Below, piece after piece: positions 9,076-35,895 of a stretch of DNA of 64,000 nt (position 1 is its first letter; each line of letters opens with the position of its first letter). The notes under the pieces are model-generated. The model saw only the letters and a program-made list of their open reading frames with translations. It made no database searches and was not told the DNA's origin. The DNA is from Bacteroidota bacterium (lineage in GTDB: Bacteria > Bacteroidota > Rhodothermia > Rhodothermales > UBA10348). Both the position numbers and the translations under genes were made by a program. The stretch is taken from the NCBI GenBank assembly GCA_029262775.1, contig JAJCYR010000059.1, forward strand, positions 1-64,000. Direction: 5' to 3'.

Positions 9076-9569
9076 GATGCCGCCGGGCGTGACGCAACCG
9101 CCTGCCCCACCATGTCCGATTGCGGGCGGGGCAACCAGTACGGCATGGGCTCACGTAGCTGTTCCTGGCAGACCGACGCCAACGACAGGAAAAACCGGTC
9201 AGCTTCTGCATCGTCCGCATCCCGTTCTGGTCCCCACCGCATGGCATACAAAATCATCTCACGTGCAAGCAGGGGAACCTGGAATACCAGGCAGTCTTCG
9301 GACTGCGGCGGGAGTGCGTCTGGCTGGAACAGCACCGAGGCATTGGTTACCGTCATTTTTGCCACCACGCGCATGTCCACATGCGACCGAATCCACGCGG
9401 CGCGCTGAGGCGGCAGCAACCAGTCCCTCCCACCAATGGTCAGATGGAACGCACCGGCAGAGGCGTACAATAGATAGTGACGTGGAAACGACCGCACGCC
9501 TGAATCGAACGGTTCGAATGTTCGGTGGACCGCGTACGCCAGCGGCTCGCGTTTCAGGGTGGAAGCCAT
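9060..9569 (-). pseudogene. AraC-family regulator N-terminal sensing domain, truncated (no HTH)
   Basis: RHYLLYASAGAFHLTIGGRDWLLPPQRAAWIRSHVDMRVVAKMTVTNASVLFQPDALP then stops after YWLPRPQSDMVGQAVASRPAASIFED*. Confidence 0.6.
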
Positions 9570-9584
9570 GGGCGAGAAGAAGTC

Positions 9585-10781
9585 CTATTGCACAACGATG
9601 GTTCGCGTACCCGTACCACAGGAGCCCCCGGCGCGAACCAGATATGCACCTGGCGCTACGCCTGCACTGGACCAAGTTACGTCAATAGACCGTCCCGGTA
9701 CACCGGCCGGACTGACATCCACCCAAATCCGGCGGCCGAGTGCATCGAATACTCCGGTCGTCACGGGATCCGTACACGGGTACACAATAGAAAACGTAGT
9801 CTGTCCGGACACCGGGTTCGGGAAGATGTCCAGCTCCGTGCCCACGGAACCCGGCACAGCAGGTTCATCATCCGTTCCGGTCGGCCCTGGCTCGCCAAAA
9901 TCTATCCGGCGGAGGACGCTGGGATGAAACGTCGTGGAGCCCAGCTCCACATCGTTCGTGTACAGGAACCGCCCTGACGGATCAAAAGAAATGGAGTTGG
10001 GAAAAGAAAACGTCGCCTGATCAAGCGGTCCGTCCGTGTTTCCGCGGACCTGGAATTGGCCTGCGAACAGTTCAACAGTTGGTAGATCGGGGGCGTCCGT
10101 CCGGAACCGGTAGATGGCGTGGGCCGCACGGGCCGTCACGTACACGTACTGGTCTGCATAGGCCAGGTTGTCGGCTTTTTCGCCCGGCACGGTGGCAATG
10201 ATCTCCAGGTTGGAGAGCGCCGGATTGATCCGAAAAACCGAGCCGTCATTGAGGTTGGAGACGTAAATCTGCCCCTCATCATCAATCGTCAGCCCGTTCG
10301 GGCAGTTGAAAAGCGTTGTCATGATCGTCTCGAGGAGTTGCCCATCGAGCGAATACTTCAGGACCGATTGGCCATTGCAACTGGCTACAATCAGATTCTC
10401 CTCGGCATCGAATGCCAGACCCGCGGGTCCATCGACGGATGCAAACAGCGACCGGGCCCCTGACGCGTCGATTCGGTCCACCCGGTTGGCGGAAAAACTC
10501 GACCAGAACAACTCTCCGGCTGCGTTGAAGGCCCCGCCGTTGCCGCCCGAAAGCGCCTCACTGAACAAAGACACGTCCCCCTCTGGCGTAATCTGATAGA
10601 GGGACGAGCCTGTCCCCGATCCATCCACGCCGAAATCGGCCACGTAAATCATGCCATCGGGAGCCACAAGGACGCCGCCTGATGCCGAGAACCCTGTCGC
10701 CAGTGTCGAAACATCCTGGCCGGACACGTGCGGTGCCCACCCAGCGACGAGGAGAAGGAGAATCGCATACCGAACCGCCAT
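9585..10781 (-). CDS. SMP-30/NHL beta-propeller secreted protein with T9SS C-terminal sorting domain
   Basis: DGMIYVADFGVDGSG, CPNGLTIDDEGQIYVSNLNDG repeats; C-term LDIFPNPVSGQTTFSIVYP...APGAYLVRAGGSCGTGTRTIVVQ. Confidence 0.85.
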   Translation of the reverse strand: MAVRYAILLLLVAGWAPHVSGQDVSTLATGFSASGGVLVAPDGMIYVADFGVDGSGTGSSLYQITPEGDVSLFSEALSGGNGGAFNAAGELFWSSFSANRVDRIDASGARSLFASVDGPAGLAFDAEENLIVASCNGQSVLKYSLDGQLLETIMTTLFNCPNGLTIDDEGQIYVSNLNDGSVFRINPALSNLEIIATVPGEKADNLAYADQYVYVTARAAHAIYRFRTDAPDLPTVELFAGQFQVRGNTDGPLDQATFSFPNSISFDPSGRFLYTNDVELGSTTFHPSVLRRIDFGEPGPTGTDDEPAVPGSVGTELDIFPNPVSGQTTFSIVYPCTDPVTTGVFDALGRRIWVDVSPAGVPGRSIDVTWSSAGVAPGAYLVRAGGSCGTGTRTIVVQ

Positions 10782-27574: not shown

Positions 27575-28438
27575 ATGAAATGGAATGGATTGCGCAACGC
27601 GTTGCGCGGAAACGCGGTTTTTTCGGGCCTGTCGGGTCTGGCCATGATCGTATGGGCCGTCCCGCTTGCCGAGTGGATGGGTGGTTTCAGCCCGTGGATT
27701 CTCGGGGTCCTTGGTCCGGGCCTGCTGCTTTTTGCGGCGTTTCTACTCCTCGAGGCGCGCCGCGCGAGGCCGGTGCCGGCTTCCGCTCTCGCGGCATCGA
27801 TCGCCGATTTCGCCTGGGTCGCGGGAAGCGCCATACTCGTGGCGGCGCCGGGTGTACTGTCGCCCGCCGGGACGTGGGTGGTGCTCTTCGTTGCGCTTGT
27901 CGTACTCCTCTTTGCTACCTGGCAGCTGGCCGGCTTGCGCGACCTTACACGTAACAGGAGCCTTACGCGTACCTCACGTGGCCGGACAACGGCTCGCAGC
28001 GCGTTCGAGGTGCACGAGGAAGTGGCGGCTTCCCCCAATGCAATATGGGGCGTAATCCGCCAATTGGACCGGATCGGGGAATTCTATGCGGTCCTGAAGA
28101 GCGTGGAAGTAACGGGCAGCGGGACGCAGATCCGGCGCACGTGCGAAAACCACAAGGGGCAACGCTGGTCGGAAGACGTCGAGTCCATGGACGATGACGC
28201 CCGCGCGCTCTCACTGCGCTTCGACACCGACGCTCCCGACTTTCCGTTTCCCATGCGCACCATGTATGGCGGCTGGACGGTTCAGGCGGCCTCAGGAAAG
28301 ACCTGCGTCACGATCTGGTACGAGTTCACCATGAAATGGGGCCTTCTGGGCGAGCTTCTGGCGCCGCTTCTCGCCGAAAAGACGCGCGCGGACATGGCGG
28401 AAACCATCAGGAGGATGGATCGGGCGGCCGCCGCTTGA
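27575..28438 (+). CDS. membrane-anchored SRPBCC (polyketide cyclase-like) protein
   Basis: MKWNGLRNALRGNAVFSGLSGLAMIVWAVPLAEWMGG four-TM region followed by EVHEEVAASPNAIWGVIRQLDRIGEFYAVLKSVEV. Confidence 0.75.
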   Translation: MKWNGLRNALRGNAVFSGLSGLAMIVWAVPLAEWMGGFSPWILGVLGPGLLLFAAFLLLEARRARPVPASALAASIADFAWVAGSAILVAAPGVLSPAGTWVVLFVALVVLLFATWQLAGLRDLTRNRSLTRTSRGRTTARSAFEVHEEVAASPNAIWGVIRQLDRIGEFYAVLKSVEVTGSGTQIRRTCENHKGQRWSEDVESMDDDARALSLRFDTDAPDFPFPMRTMYGGWTVQAASGKTCVTIWYEFTMKWGLLGELLAPLLAEKTRADMAETIRRMDRAAAA

Positions 28439-28528
28439 ACAGGGCGTAGATATTCGGACAGATCCGTTCAGCGGGACATTCGAATGCGTATGTTGATGAA
28501 TTTTGCGTGTACTCCCGAACATTGTAGT

Positions 28529-28547
28529 GTACTACAGGCTGTAGTAC
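28529..28547. promoter_or_regulatory. candidate MerR-type operator
   Basis: GTACTACA-GGC-TGTAGTAC perfect 8-bp dyad 38 bp upstream of the first ORF of the metal cassette. Confidence 0.6.
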
Positions 28548-28584
28548 TGTACGTCAATGAATTTCATATAGACAGCCCATTTCC

Positions 28585-28953
28585 ATGAGAACCGGATTGC
28601 TTCTGCTCCTTGCCATTGCAACATCACTCACACTGGCACCGGATGCGGAAGCGCAGGCGGCCAAGGTCATGAATGACCCGGATGTAATCATCGAGATCGG
28701 TGGCCTGTCCTGCCCCTTCTGCGCGTATGGTGTTGAAAAACGTCTCCGGAAACTGGATGGAATTGAGCATCTCTCCATTCTGCTCGAAGAAGGAATCGTA
28801 CAGGTGAGGCTTGAGGACGGCGCGACGGTGTCAGAAAGCCAGTTCAAGAAAGCCGTCAAAGACGCGGGGTTCGAGGCCATACGCGTCACGTTTCTGATCG
28901 AGGATGCCGATGCCGGTCTAAGCGATAAGGCCGATGCTGGGCCGAGCCAATGA
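28585..28953 (+). CDS. exported heavy-metal-associated (HMA) domain protein
   Basis: Signal peptide then VIIEIGGLSCPFCAYGVEKRLRKLDGIEHLSILLEEGIVQVRLEDG. Confidence 0.85.
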   Translation: MRTGLLLLLAIATSLTLAPDAEAQAAKVMNDPDVIIEIGGLSCPFCAYGVEKRLRKLDGIEHLSILLEEGIVQVRLEDGATVSESQFKKAVKDAGFEAIRVTFLIEDADAGLSDKADAGPSQ

Positions 28954-29852
28954 AACGGCGCTCGGCAGGTCTGAAGTTGGGCGTGCTCCTCGTCTGCGCT
29001 GGTGCCGTCAGTCCATCAATGGCACAGATCACCACAAACACGGCGCTTCCAGTGGGCAAGGGACAGGGAATTGTTCGCCTCCAATCCAGGGTTGTTCGAT
29101 CGAAGGATGATGCCGGTCCCGTGAATCGGGAATTGCGGGTCGTCGCGTTTCCGCTTGTTGGCGCCTATGGAGCGACATCCCGACTGGCGCTGTTTGGCGT
29201 CCTGCCGTTCGCCAGCAAGGACATGACCGTCTCATCGCCACAGGGCCGCCTCCAGCGGGATGATTCGGGACTGCTCGATGTGCGGCTCTTCGCAAGATAC
29301 ACGGCCTGGCAGCGCAACCGTCGCGGCGAGACCATGCGGCTTGCCCCGTTCGCAGGATTTGAGTTGCCGACAGGCACGGATGACAAAATGGATGACCAGG
29401 GCAAATTCCCCGGGCCTCTTCAGCTCGGAAGTGGGTCACTGGACGCATTCGCCGGCCTCGTCTACTCGTGGCAGACCTTTGACTGGCAGATCGATGCGTC
29501 AGCGGCATACGCCGTGAACTCCGAGGCCAATGACTTCCAGTTCGGAGATGAAATCCGGCTGGATCTGGCCACGAAAGCCCGTATTCTGCCCCGCCATCTG
29601 GGCGGGGGCATGCCCAGCTTCCTTTACGTCAATCTGGAGACAAACCTGATATGGCAGGATGAGAACGAAGTGGACAGCGTGACCGACCCGAATTCAGGCG
29701 GAACGACGTGGTATCTGGCACCCGGAATTCAATACGCCACGACGCGAATCATACTCGAAACGGCTCTTCAGATTCCTGCCGTACAGGATCTCAACGGGAT
29801 GGCTCTCGAGAACGATTACATATACACGATTGGCCTGCGCATCAACTTTTAA
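28950..29852 (+). CDS. outer-membrane beta-barrel protein (transporter-like)
   Basis: Signal peptide; amphipathic pattern; ends with IYTIGLRINF (C-terminal Phe); overlaps the upstream gene. Confidence 0.65.
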   Translation: MKRRSAGLKLGVLLVCAGAVSPSMAQITTNTALPVGKGQGIVRLQSRVVRSKDDAGPVNRELRVVAFPLVGAYGATSRLALFGVLPFASKDMTVSSPQGRLQRDDSGLLDVRLFARYTAWQRNRRGETMRLAPFAGFELPTGTDDKMDDQGKFPGPLQLGSGSLDAFAGLVYSWQTFDWQIDASAAYAVNSEANDFQFGDEIRLDLATKARILPRHLGGGMPSFLYVNLETNLIWQDENEVDSVTDPNSGGTTWYLAPGIQYATTRIILETALQIPAVQDLNGMALENDYIYTIGLRINF

Positions 29853-29867
29853 TTGACCCTTACGAAC

Positions 29868-30827
29868 ATGAACCGTAGCCTTCTCCGGCTGGTCCTTCCA
29901 ATACTCCCGCTGCTGGTACTCATCCTACCGGCTTGTCAGTTGTCGTCCGACGACATTCCGACATATCACGTGGTCAGCGAGTGGGGCCAGAGAGGCGCTG
30001 GACCGGGCGAGTTTACGGAGCCCATCGGTCTCGTAGTGAACGGGAGCGAGGTCTTCGTAAGCGATGCTGGCAACAACCGCATACAGGTATTTGACCTCGA
30101 CGGCCGCTTCCTGCGCCAATTTGGTGAAGGCGGGACAGCGCTCGGCGAGCTCGGGCGCCCGATGCACCTCGGCGTGCGTCGTGACACGCTGTACGTAGCA
30201 GAATACCTCAACGACCGCGTGCAGCTCTTCTCACCTGATGGGACATCCCTTGCCGCGTTTGGCACCGCAGGTACCGGAGCGGGGCAATTCGATGCGCCGA
30301 GCAGTGCCACCGTGGACGCGGAAGGCCGCATCCATGTGGCGGATTTCTACAACCAGCGCATTCAGATCCTTGATCCCGCGGGCAACATGACAAAGCAGAT
30401 CGGGACAACCGGAAAAGACAGTCGGGAGCCGGGCCAGTTCACATATCCAACGTCCGTGGCCCTCTTTCCGGACGGAGGATTCGTGGTCGCCGATGCCTAC
30501 AACCACCGCATCCAGGCATTTGGCCCCGACGGTGCGTTCCGATGGATGGTACCGGAAAACGTCGCCTGGGCAGATTCCGCCCGTGGTCATTTCAATGTGG
30601 CCACTTCGGTAGTCGTCAGCCAACAGAACATCATCCACGTGGCCGATTTCTACAACCATCGCATCCAGCTGATCTCAGAGAACGGTGAGTGGCTGTCCAC
30701 TTTTGGCACGCAGGGATCGGGGTCCGGACAATTCAACCTGCCCACAGGCATGGCCTTCGACGAGGAGGGAAATCTGTTCGTTGTTGACTTCGGAAACGAC
30801 CGCATCCAGAAATTTGAATCCCGGTAG
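29868..30827 (+). CDS. NHL-repeat lipoprotein
   Basis: Lipobox LLVLILPACQLS; repeats GEFTEPIGLVVNGSEVFVSDAGNNRIQVFD, HVADFYNQRIQILDPAGN. Confidence 0.85.
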   Translation: MNRSLLRLVLPILPLLVLILPACQLSSDDIPTYHVVSEWGQRGAGPGEFTEPIGLVVNGSEVFVSDAGNNRIQVFDLDGRFLRQFGEGGTALGELGRPMHLGVRRDTLYVAEYLNDRVQLFSPDGTSLAAFGTAGTGAGQFDAPSSATVDAEGRIHVADFYNQRIQILDPAGNMTKQIGTTGKDSREPGQFTYPTSVALFPDGGFVVADAYNHRIQAFGPDGAFRWMVPENVAWADSARGHFNVATSVVVSQQNIIHVADFYNHRIQLISENGEWLSTFGTQGSGSGQFNLPTGMAFDEEGNLFVVDFGNDRIQKFESR

Positions 30828-30834
30828 GCGAGGC

Positions 30835-31224
30835 ATGACACGAGGCGAAGTTGCAAGACGCACCCACATAGGCAGCGAGACAGTTCGCTATTACGAGCAA
30901 CGGGGTCTGCTTCCCAAACCTCCCCGCAGTGCCGGAGGGTTTCGCAGGTACGACGAAGCGTATGTGCGGCGTATCCGTTTCATCAAGCAGGCCAAGGAGT
31001 TGGGGTTCACTTTGATGGAAATCAAGGAGCTGCTCACCCTGCGGTTGGACCCGGAAACAGACTGTGGCGACGTGAAGCATCATGCGGAGATGAAACTCGC
31101 CGATGTCACGAAAAAAATTGAGGGCCTGAAGCAGATTCGGGCGGCACTCATGGAGTTGACCCTCAACTGCGAAGGCCGTGGGCCAGTCAGCGACTGTCCC
31201 ATTCTGGACGCTCTGGACGTGTGA
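30835..31224 (+). CDS. merR: MerR-family regulator with mercury-type cysteine triad
   Basis: ARRTHIGSETVRYYEQRGLLPKPPRSAGGFRRYDEAYVRRIRFIKQAKELGFTLMEIKELL; Cys77/112/121 spacing (35, 9) equals Tn501 MerR Cys82/117/126. Confidence 0.85.
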   Translation: MTRGEVARRTHIGSETVRYYEQRGLLPKPPRSAGGFRRYDEAYVRRIRFIKQAKELGFTLMEIKELLTLRLDPETDCGDVKHHAEMKLADVTKKIEGLKQIRAALMELTLNCEGRGPVSDCPILDALDV

Positions 31225-33426: not shown

Positions 33427-35895
33427 ATGATCGCACTGCTACGCGTCGGCGTTTTGGCCGCCTTTCTGCTCGCTTTCTCCGCATCCGCATCCACATCCAC
33501 ATCCGTCCACGCCCAGTCAAACGGCCGCATTTCGGGTATTGTATTCGCGTCCGACACCGGCGAGACCATACCGGGCGCCAACGTGGAGCTGGTCGGAACC
33601 ACCTTCGGCGCCGCCGCCGACATGCGGGGCCGTTTTGACATTTCAGGCCTCCCTGCCGCGCCGTACGTGCTCCGCGTATCGACCCTCGGGTACGCCACGA
33701 GCACATTCAATGTCCGCGTTTTGGCAGGCGAAAGCGCCACCGTACGCATCCCCCTGGAACCCACCATACTTGAAATCCCCGAGCTGATTGTGGAGCGCGA
33801 AAGCATGCTGGCCCACCCACTCGGCATGGACGGCATTCCGGGATCGGCCCACCGCGTTACGGCCCGGTCGCTCGAGAAATTCGAGGCCAATGACATCAAC
33901 CGCGCGCTGCGGAGTGTGCCCGGATTGAACCTGCAGGAGGAAGACGGCTACGGTCTGCGCCCCAACATCGGCATCCGCGGGAGCGGCGCCGAGCGCAGTT
34001 CGAAAATCAGCATCATGGAAGACGGCGTGCTCGTCGCTCCGGCACCCTACGCGGCATCGGCCGCCTACTACTTCCCGACCGTCGGACGCATGGAGGAAAT
34101 CGAAATCCGGAAAGGATCGAGCCAGATCAAATACGGCCCGTACACAACGGGCGGCGCCATCAACCTGATCTCGAAATCCATTCCCGAAAAGCTGTCGGGA
34201 GAGGCGCGCGTGCTCGCGGGCGAGGAGGAAAGCCTGACGGTCGAAGGCTTCGTGGGCAACTCATGGAAGCACGGCGGTTTCCTGGTCCAGGCCTTCAACG
34301 CACAGACCGACGGCTACAAGGAGCTCGATGGCGGAAGTAACACCGGCTTCAACAAGACGGACATCATGCTCAAGGGCCGCATCAATACAGCAAAAAGCGC
34401 AGCCATCTACCAGGCGTTGTCCGTGAAAGCCCTCTTCACGGACGAAGTGTCCGACGAAACGTACCTCGGGCTGACCGATGCGGACTTCCGCGCCACTCCC
34501 AATCGGCGCTACGCGGGATCGGCCGAGGACGAGATGAACACCGAGTACCGCCAGGTCATGCTGCGTCACCTCGTGGTGCCGCGTGAAAACCTGAAAATCA
34601 CCACAACCGCCTACCGATCGACATTTGCGCGCAACTGGTACAAGCTCGACAAGGTGGGCGGCGTATCGATTTCCAGTCTGCTCGAGGAGCCGGCCGATCA
34701 CGCACAGGAATTCAGTGTCGTGCAGGGACTTTCGACCAATACATCGACCCCGCTGAACGTAAAGGCCAACAACCGGGAATACCTCTCGCGGGGCATCCAG
34801 TCGGCCATGCAATACCAGACAGATACCCGGGCGGGAGCGCTCGATATCGAACTCGGGGTGCGCATCCATGAGGATGAAATGGACCGCTTTCAATGGGTCG
34901 ACGGATTTGTCATGACGGGGTCGGGCATGAACCTGGTCGCGCCCGGCGTGCCGGGAACGGACTCGAACCGCATTGAAACGGCGACGGCCACGGCGTTTTT
35001 CGTGCAGCCACGCCTCATGGCGGGCCGCGTGACCATCCAGCCCGGGCTGCGCTACGAGAATATTTCCATCCGCCGCGAGGATTTCGGAAAGAGCGATGTG
35101 GAGCGTACGGGCGCGAACCTTGCGGAGCGCCGGAACGAGGTCGATGTCTGGATTCCGGGTGTGGGCATATCTGCTGAAATCCGGCCCGGCGCGACGATGT
35201 TTGGCGGCGTGCACCGCGGATTTGCGCCTCCTGGATCGACCGTGGGGACCGATCCCGAGAAGAGCGTCAACTACGAACTCGGGGCGCGCTACCATGACGG
35301 CGCCCGCCGCGCCGAAGTGGCCTTTTTCTACAACGACTTCGAAAACCTGCTGGGGACCGATCTCGCGGCTGGCGGCGGTACGGGCAGCGGCGACCTCTTC
35401 AACGGCGGTGAGGCCAGCGTGCGCGGCATTGAGATCACAGCGGGCGAAAACCTGGGCCGCTTCCTGGACTGGCGCTTCTCTGTTCCGGTTGGCGTGTCCT
35501 ACACGTTTACCGATGCCACGTTCAAAACGTCCTTTGCCAGTGACTTTGCCAACTGGGGCGACGTCGACAAGGACGACGAACTGCCGTACGTGCCGCGCAA
35601 CCAGTTCACGGTCGACGTCGGGCTGAACACCGGCGATTTCGACCTCGCGCTCCAGGGCACGTGGGTCGATGACATGCGGACCGTTGCTGGTCAGGGCGAT
35701 TTCGTGCCCGAACAGTCGGTCGAGTCGTTCTTCGTGGCCGAATTCTCTGCAGGATACGAGGTCAACCCGAACGTGCGTATCTTTGGCATTGTCCGTAACC
35801 TGTTTGACGAAGAATATGCCGTGGCACGCCGCCCGGCAGGATTGCGCCCGGGACTGCCCCGAACCATCCTTGCCGGTATGCGTGTCACATTCTGA
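33427..35895 (+). CDS. TonB-dependent receptor with CarboxypepD_reg-like N-terminal domain (FecA-like, iron/siderophore type)
   Basis: ISGIVFASDTGETIPGANVEL; plug ALRSVPGLNLQEEDGYGLRPNIGIRGSGAERSSKISIMEDGVLVAPAPYAASAAYYFPTVGRMEEIEIRKGSSQIKYGPYTTGGAINLISK. Confidence 0.9.
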   Translation: MIALLRVGVLAAFLLAFSASASTSTSVHAQSNGRISGIVFASDTGETIPGANVELVGTTFGAAADMRGRFDISGLPAAPYVLRVSTLGYATSTFNVRVLAGESATVRIPLEPTILEIPELIVERESMLAHPLGMDGIPGSAHRVTARSLEKFEANDINRALRSVPGLNLQEEDGYGLRPNIGIRGSGAERSSKISIMEDGVLVAPAPYAASAAYYFPTVGRMEEIEIRKGSSQIKYGPYTTGGAINLISKSIPEKLSGEARVLAGEEESLTVEGFVGNSWKHGGFLVQAFNAQTDGYKELDGGSNTGFNKTDIMLKGRINTAKSAAIYQALSVKALFTDEVSDETYLGLTDADFRATPNRRYAGSAEDEMNTEYRQVMLRHLVVPRENLKITTTAYRSTFARNWYKLDKVGGVSISSLLEEPADHAQEFSVVQGLSTNTSTPLNVKANNREYLSRGIQSAMQYQTDTRAGALDIELGVRIHEDEMDRFQWVDGFVMTGSGMNLVAPGVPGTDSNRIETATATAFFVQPRLMAGRVTIQPGLRYENISIRREDFGKSDVERTGANLAERRNEVDVWIPGVGISAEIRPGATMFGGVHRGFAPPGSTVGTDPEKSVNYELGARYHDGARRAEVAFFYNDFENLLGTDLAAGGGTGSGDLFNGGEASVRGIEITAGENLGRFLDWRFSVPVGVSYTFTDATFKTSFASDFANWGDVDKDDELPYVPRNQFTVDVGLNTGDFDLALQGTWVDDMRTVAGQGDFVPEQSVESFFVAEFSAGYEVNPNVRIFGIVRNLFDEEYAVARRPAGLRPGLPRTILAGMRVTF

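Follow-up and report, generated by a model that had tools for sequence, protein, structure and literature searches.

The window, the whole stretch of 64,000 nucleotides analysed here, contains a MerR-family regulator gene at the end of a cluster of envelope-protein genes, which raises the question of which metal the regulator answers to and what its neighbours do with that metal. Four ORFs are packed into positions 28585-31224, all of them present and in the order given by the original prediction; the barrel start overlaps the HMA stop (ATGA), and the two gaps that follow, barrel to NHL and NHL stop to MerR, measure 15 bp and 7 bp. The features discussed below are the following:

28519..28540, + strand: probable MerR operator, a 9-4-9 palindrome ACATTGTAG-TGTA-CTACAGGCT, from a cross-genus footprint
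28529..28547, no strand assigned: dyad GTACTACA-GGC-TGTAGTAC of the original prediction, overlapping the probable operator and not conserved
28585..28953, + strand: exported HMA metal-binding protein with the motif CPFCAYG (PF00403)
28950..29852, + strand: outer-membrane beta-barrel protein of the PF13557 type
29868..30827, + strand: NHL-repeat lipoprotein, predicted six-bladed propeller (PF01436, AlphaFold2 model)
30835..31224, + strand: MerR-family metal sensor with Cys77/Cys112/Cys121 (PF13411 and PF09278)

The Pfam assignments of all four products lie above the gathering cut-offs. The HMA protein has a signal peptide and the sequence GLSCPFCAYG (PF00403 at 35 bits); its orthologues in homologous cassettes are 29-56% identical, and its best NCBIfam scores, below cut-off, were against CopZ models. 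The barrel protein matches PF13557 (outer-membrane 'Phenol_MetA_deg') at 37 bits and has orthologues that are 42-60% identical; its AlphaFold2 model reached a pLDDT of only 28, and the barrel assignment comes from Pfam and the signal peptide. The third product (PF01436, 115 bits) has the lipobox LPAC, whose Cys23 is invariant among four orthologues, and is modelled by AlphaFold2 as a 6-bladed propeller (pLDDT 86) with an NHL domain as its top PDB match. The regulator has the HTH and the C-terminal metal-loop Cys pair of the metal-sensing MerR family (COG0789 type), and its closest solved relatives are MerR, PbrR691, CadR and CueR. A PHROGs comparison gave no useful match.

A seven-sequence barrel profile was used to survey the conservation of the cluster among 114 genomes of the order; all counts come from these whole-genome searches, scanning of genome contigs with the one barrel protein having returned one relative only. 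The barrel orthologue was found at seven loci in six genomes, with MerR just downstream in all seven and HMA upstream in every locus except one that ends at a contig edge. An NHL orthologue lies between barrel and MerR at four of the seven loci (the window, G019, G047 and G437), those of the three other cassettes being 57-67% identical, and none was found in the order outside these cassettes at E<=1e-60. The lipoprotein and the terminal merR had both been called unusual; the former is specific to a sub-group of the cassettes, and merR in last place is the normal order among homologous loci. merA was found neither in the window cassette nor in any homologous cassette read, and a MerT-like gene occurs in some only; the neighbours themselves co-occur with merR as a conserved set. 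That merR merely happens to stand beside unrelated envelope genes is extremely improbable and is refuted by this conservation: seven loci from divergent genera share the gene order, the NHL orthologue occurs only in these cassettes and the operator is shared. A gammaproteobacterial MAG also has the genes, in the order MerR-barrel-HMA, together with a MerT-like gene. No description of the HMA-barrel-NHL-MerR gene set was found in the open-access literature searched, and the MerR cassette, which is real and conserved, is apparently so far undescribed. Related PF13557-type barrels occur also in contexts without metal genes, and a barrel match that the phylum-wide search gave beyond the order (G212, 31% identity) lacks both MerR and HMA as neighbours.

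The surroundings of the cassettes vary. A thioredoxin-like gene lies upstream in G437, G008:C74 and G047, and G008:C74 also has a distant MerT-like gene upstream, of which G008:C141 retains a remnant; the window cassette is the form with neither gene. Small CC-motif membrane proteins encoded at L046:7690-8085 and L054:3219-3653 are weakly MerT-like by profile comparison and matched nothing in Pfam or NCBIfam at E<=1e-5. Two homologous cassettes are near CusA/CzcA-type efflux genes, one of them with an HMBD-bearing CusB-like protein. These efflux neighbours are not a fixed feature: in L051, from another genome, the same cus-like cluster lies next to MerR-MerT(P) genes.

Upstream of the HMA gene, three TGTAG/CTACA blocks build two overlapping inverted repeats. 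The dyad at 28529-28547, which had been proposed as the operator, is exactly as described and pairs at 8 of 8 positions in the window, but only 4 of 8 pairs remain at the homologous place in three other loci; its assignment as operator is probably wrong and was rejected by footprinting across homologous loci. The conserved repeat is the 5' one, a 22-bp site at 28519-28540 that starts ten bases upstream of the dyad. Its counterparts are ACCTTGTAG-CGTA-CTACAGGGC in G019, ACCTTGCAG-GTTA-CTACAGGGC in G008 and ACTCTGTAG-TATA-CAACAGGCT in G437; they lie 56-66 bases ahead of the first start codon in each locus, and identities in the three homologous cassettes are 18, 16 and 18 of 22. Of 5000 shuffles of the upstream region per locus, 0, 0 and 1 scored as well, and the core of the site has a single match in the 3.3-Mb genome. 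Judged from the sequence, 28519-28540 is the probable MerR operator. Metal-sensing MerR regulators typically bind a palindrome within a promoter spacer of 19-20 bp; no convincing -35/-10 pair was found near the conserved palindrome, and generic promoter and terminator scans performed at chance level. CadR/PbrR operator sites look similar to those of the Firmicute MerR type. The window site has the 9-4-9 geometry of the published Firmicute MerR consensus ACCGTGTAC-N4-GTACAGGGT (PMC1526738) and agrees with it at 13 of 18 half-site positions, a likeness to the Firmicute mer operon that names no metal because of this similarity.

That operator resemblance is one of several features that could make the cassette a mercury-specific accessory operon, in which Cys77/112/121 would let MerR detect Hg(II), and Hg(II) would be intercepted by the envelope proteins on its way to the cytoplasm, the place of action of the separately encoded MerT(P)-MerA. 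The predicted cysteines are present with the 35/9 spacing, in the columns of Cys82/117/126 of Tn501 MerR; the mercury model TIGR02051 ranks first among NCBIfam models for the regulator; as in the mer operon, a regulator of the MerR family with a Cys triad goes together with a periplasmic HMA protein, there MerP; and a MerT-like gene occurs in two homologous loci. The genome also has mercury genes. The cluster had been described as lacking merA and merT. This holds for the locus, which has no merP orthologue either, but elsewhere in the genome merT(P) and merA share a 3.6-kb contig, C95 (L071, G000:C95:1-3624), the pair being cut at the contig start. In the congener G002 this merT(P)-merA pair adjoins an ArsR regulator gene, not merR, and no relative of the window MerR was found in the congeners G001-G003, those with merT(P)-merA included; canonical mercury reduction is therefore separate from the cassette. 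In addition, the TIGR02051 score of 127.0 bits falls below the cut-off of 150.85, as do those of the CueR model TIGR02044 (119.5 bits, cut-off 147.4) and the CadR-PbrR model TIGR02047 (109.6 bits, cut-off 151.45), and the lead sensor PbrR691 has Cys in the same three columns with the same 35/9 spacing. The window cassette further differs from mer operons in that merR comes last and that the barrel and the NHL lipoprotein are not mer components. In view of these points, and of the substitution of Cys77 described below, mercury as the signal, a part of the original prediction that was not supported, seems to us possible but doubtful. Despite the likeness to PbrR691, the locus differs from PbrR/CadR-regulated Pb/Cd loci, in which the exporters are P-type ATPases or CDF proteins (PMC1526738).

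Across 24 aligned sequences, Cys112 and Cys121 are invariant and residue 77 varies. The window and the gammaproteobacterial cassette have Cys there, and six of the seven homologous barrel cassettes have Arg; Cys77 is thus not conserved in homologues of the window MerR, which separates them from the mer operon. The Arg codons (CGG, CGG, CGC, CGC, AGG and AGA) differ, indicating that this was not one recent change. In the regulators concerned (L045-L049 and L086), Arg77 replaces a metal-ligand Cys of MerR, PbrR and CadR. Relatives with Cys77 (L011, L013, L050 and L051) adjoin MerT(P), and those that adjoin a Cu-type ATPase have Ser77. In the tree, the window MerR falls among Arg, Ser and Cys forms whose branching is unresolved, so that Cys77 may have been either kept or regained.

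An invariant Cys pair next to a variable residue 77 would also suit a Cu(I)/Ag(I) envelope system, in which a CueR-like MerR would act through Cys112/Cys121 and the HMA and barrel proteins would export a monovalent soft metal, replacing CusCBA or working beside it. With its HMA chaperone, outer-membrane component and MerR-type sensor the cassette resembles CueR/Cus systems, the CopZ models are the best, sub-threshold matches of the HMA protein, and CusA/CzcA-type genes adjoin some homologous cassettes, one with the HMBD-bearing CusB-like protein. However, the window MerR keeps Cys77, the divalent-type residue, where CueR has Ser77, and it is Ser rather than Cys or Arg that the relatives adjoining a Cu-ATPase have; the barrel is of the PF13557 type and not a CusC-type channel, the cassette has no pump, and elsewhere the cus-like cluster has a MerT(P) locus as its neighbour. 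We consider this explanation unlikely.

Our preferred reading, which we hold to be reasonably probable, is that the cassette is a small autoregulated operon, probably horizontally gained, that handles a thiophilic metal in the cell envelope. We favour it because HMA, barrel and MerR are co-conserved at the seven loci and in the gammaproteobacterial MAG, because the NHL orthologue is confined to the cassettes and the operator footprint extends across genera with a single genomic copy, because the MerR is of the metal-sensor type with conserved Cys112/121, and because homologous loci adjoin CusA/CzcA-type genes or carry thioredoxin-like or MerT-like genes. A further reason is that an HMA-barrel pair adjoins a heavy-metal P-type ATPase on the Marinobacter salarius plasmid pSMR5. 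There, an HMA protein with CPFCAYG, 38% identical to that of the window, is directly followed by a barrel-family gene; unlike the window cassette, the pair follows the ATPase gene, the barrel gene is truncated and merR is about 4 kb away. The ATPase on pSMR5 (L104) has the motif GYPCA, not CPC. Points against the preferred reading are the changing efflux neighbours and the related PF13557-type barrels whose surroundings include no metal genes.

In such an operon, MerR would bind the 22-bp site at 28519-28540 and, with metal bound through Cys112/Cys121 (here also Cys77), would activate the one promoter, ahead of the HMA gene, that also drives merR, which would make the system autoregulated. The operon would encode a CxxC protein that binds metal in the periplasm, a barrel of the outer membrane and, within the sub-group of cassettes, the propeller lipoprotein. 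The HMA protein most likely binds metal in the periplasm and delivers it to the barrel, which removes it, while the NHL propeller serves as a scaffold. The genes present, their conservation, the footprint of the operator and the positions of the Cys residues are observations, from which we infer the response to metal, the autoregulation, the direction of export and these contacts. The signal would most likely be Hg(II) or another thiophilic divalent ion, with Cu(I)/Ag(I) next. Apart from the Hg(II) signal and the placement of the operator, the original reading of the cassette is supported: it is conserved, probably autoregulated, codes for products of the periplasm and outer membrane, and is without a reductase. 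An outer-membrane barrel with a periplasmic metal-binding protein could instead serve metal import, and the cassette itself encodes no pump, so the genes might form an acquisition or sensing system rather than one for expulsion. MerR-family metal sensors, however, are activated by metal excess, and efflux genes lie near homologous loci; uptake is thus improbable. A more specific form of the thiophilic-metal reading, that a separate MerR branch with Cys or a conserved Arg at residue 77 controls an undescribed HMA/barrel/NHL-propeller route by which the metal crosses the outer membrane with neither a reductase nor an inner-membrane transporter involved, we put forward only tentatively.

If the thiophilic-metal reading is true, bacteria can assemble a metal defence out of components of the periplasm and outer membrane controlled by MerR, and the PF13557 barrel and the NHL lipoprotein, both from poorly understood families, would acquire a function. 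The family would also supply natural Cys/Arg variants at a position thought to set metal valence preference, making MerR metal selectivity directly testable.

Comparison with the congener G003 bears on the origin of the cassette. The same flanks, an SRPBCC gene on the left and P5, TfoX-like, hydrolase and TonB receptor genes on the right, there enclose a methyltransferase gene where the window has the cassette, and a 35/39-nt match running into the methyltransferase 3' end remains at the left edge (28415-28453). From the shared flanks and this remnant we conclude that the cassette was probably gained by replacement. Its G+C content is slightly low (58.3% vs 60.4%). The G003 gene is a Class I methyltransferase (L097, G003:C43, about 9460-10090). 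A tRNA-Glu as integration site was unsupported, and flanking repeats were looked for and none found. The TonB-dependent receptor gene close to the cassette (window 33427-35895) was considered as a further cassette member and rejected; it belongs to the flank because it is syntenic in G003, which is without the cassette. In G008, a 49% identical TonB receptor is encoded directly after merR (L049:2604-3803).
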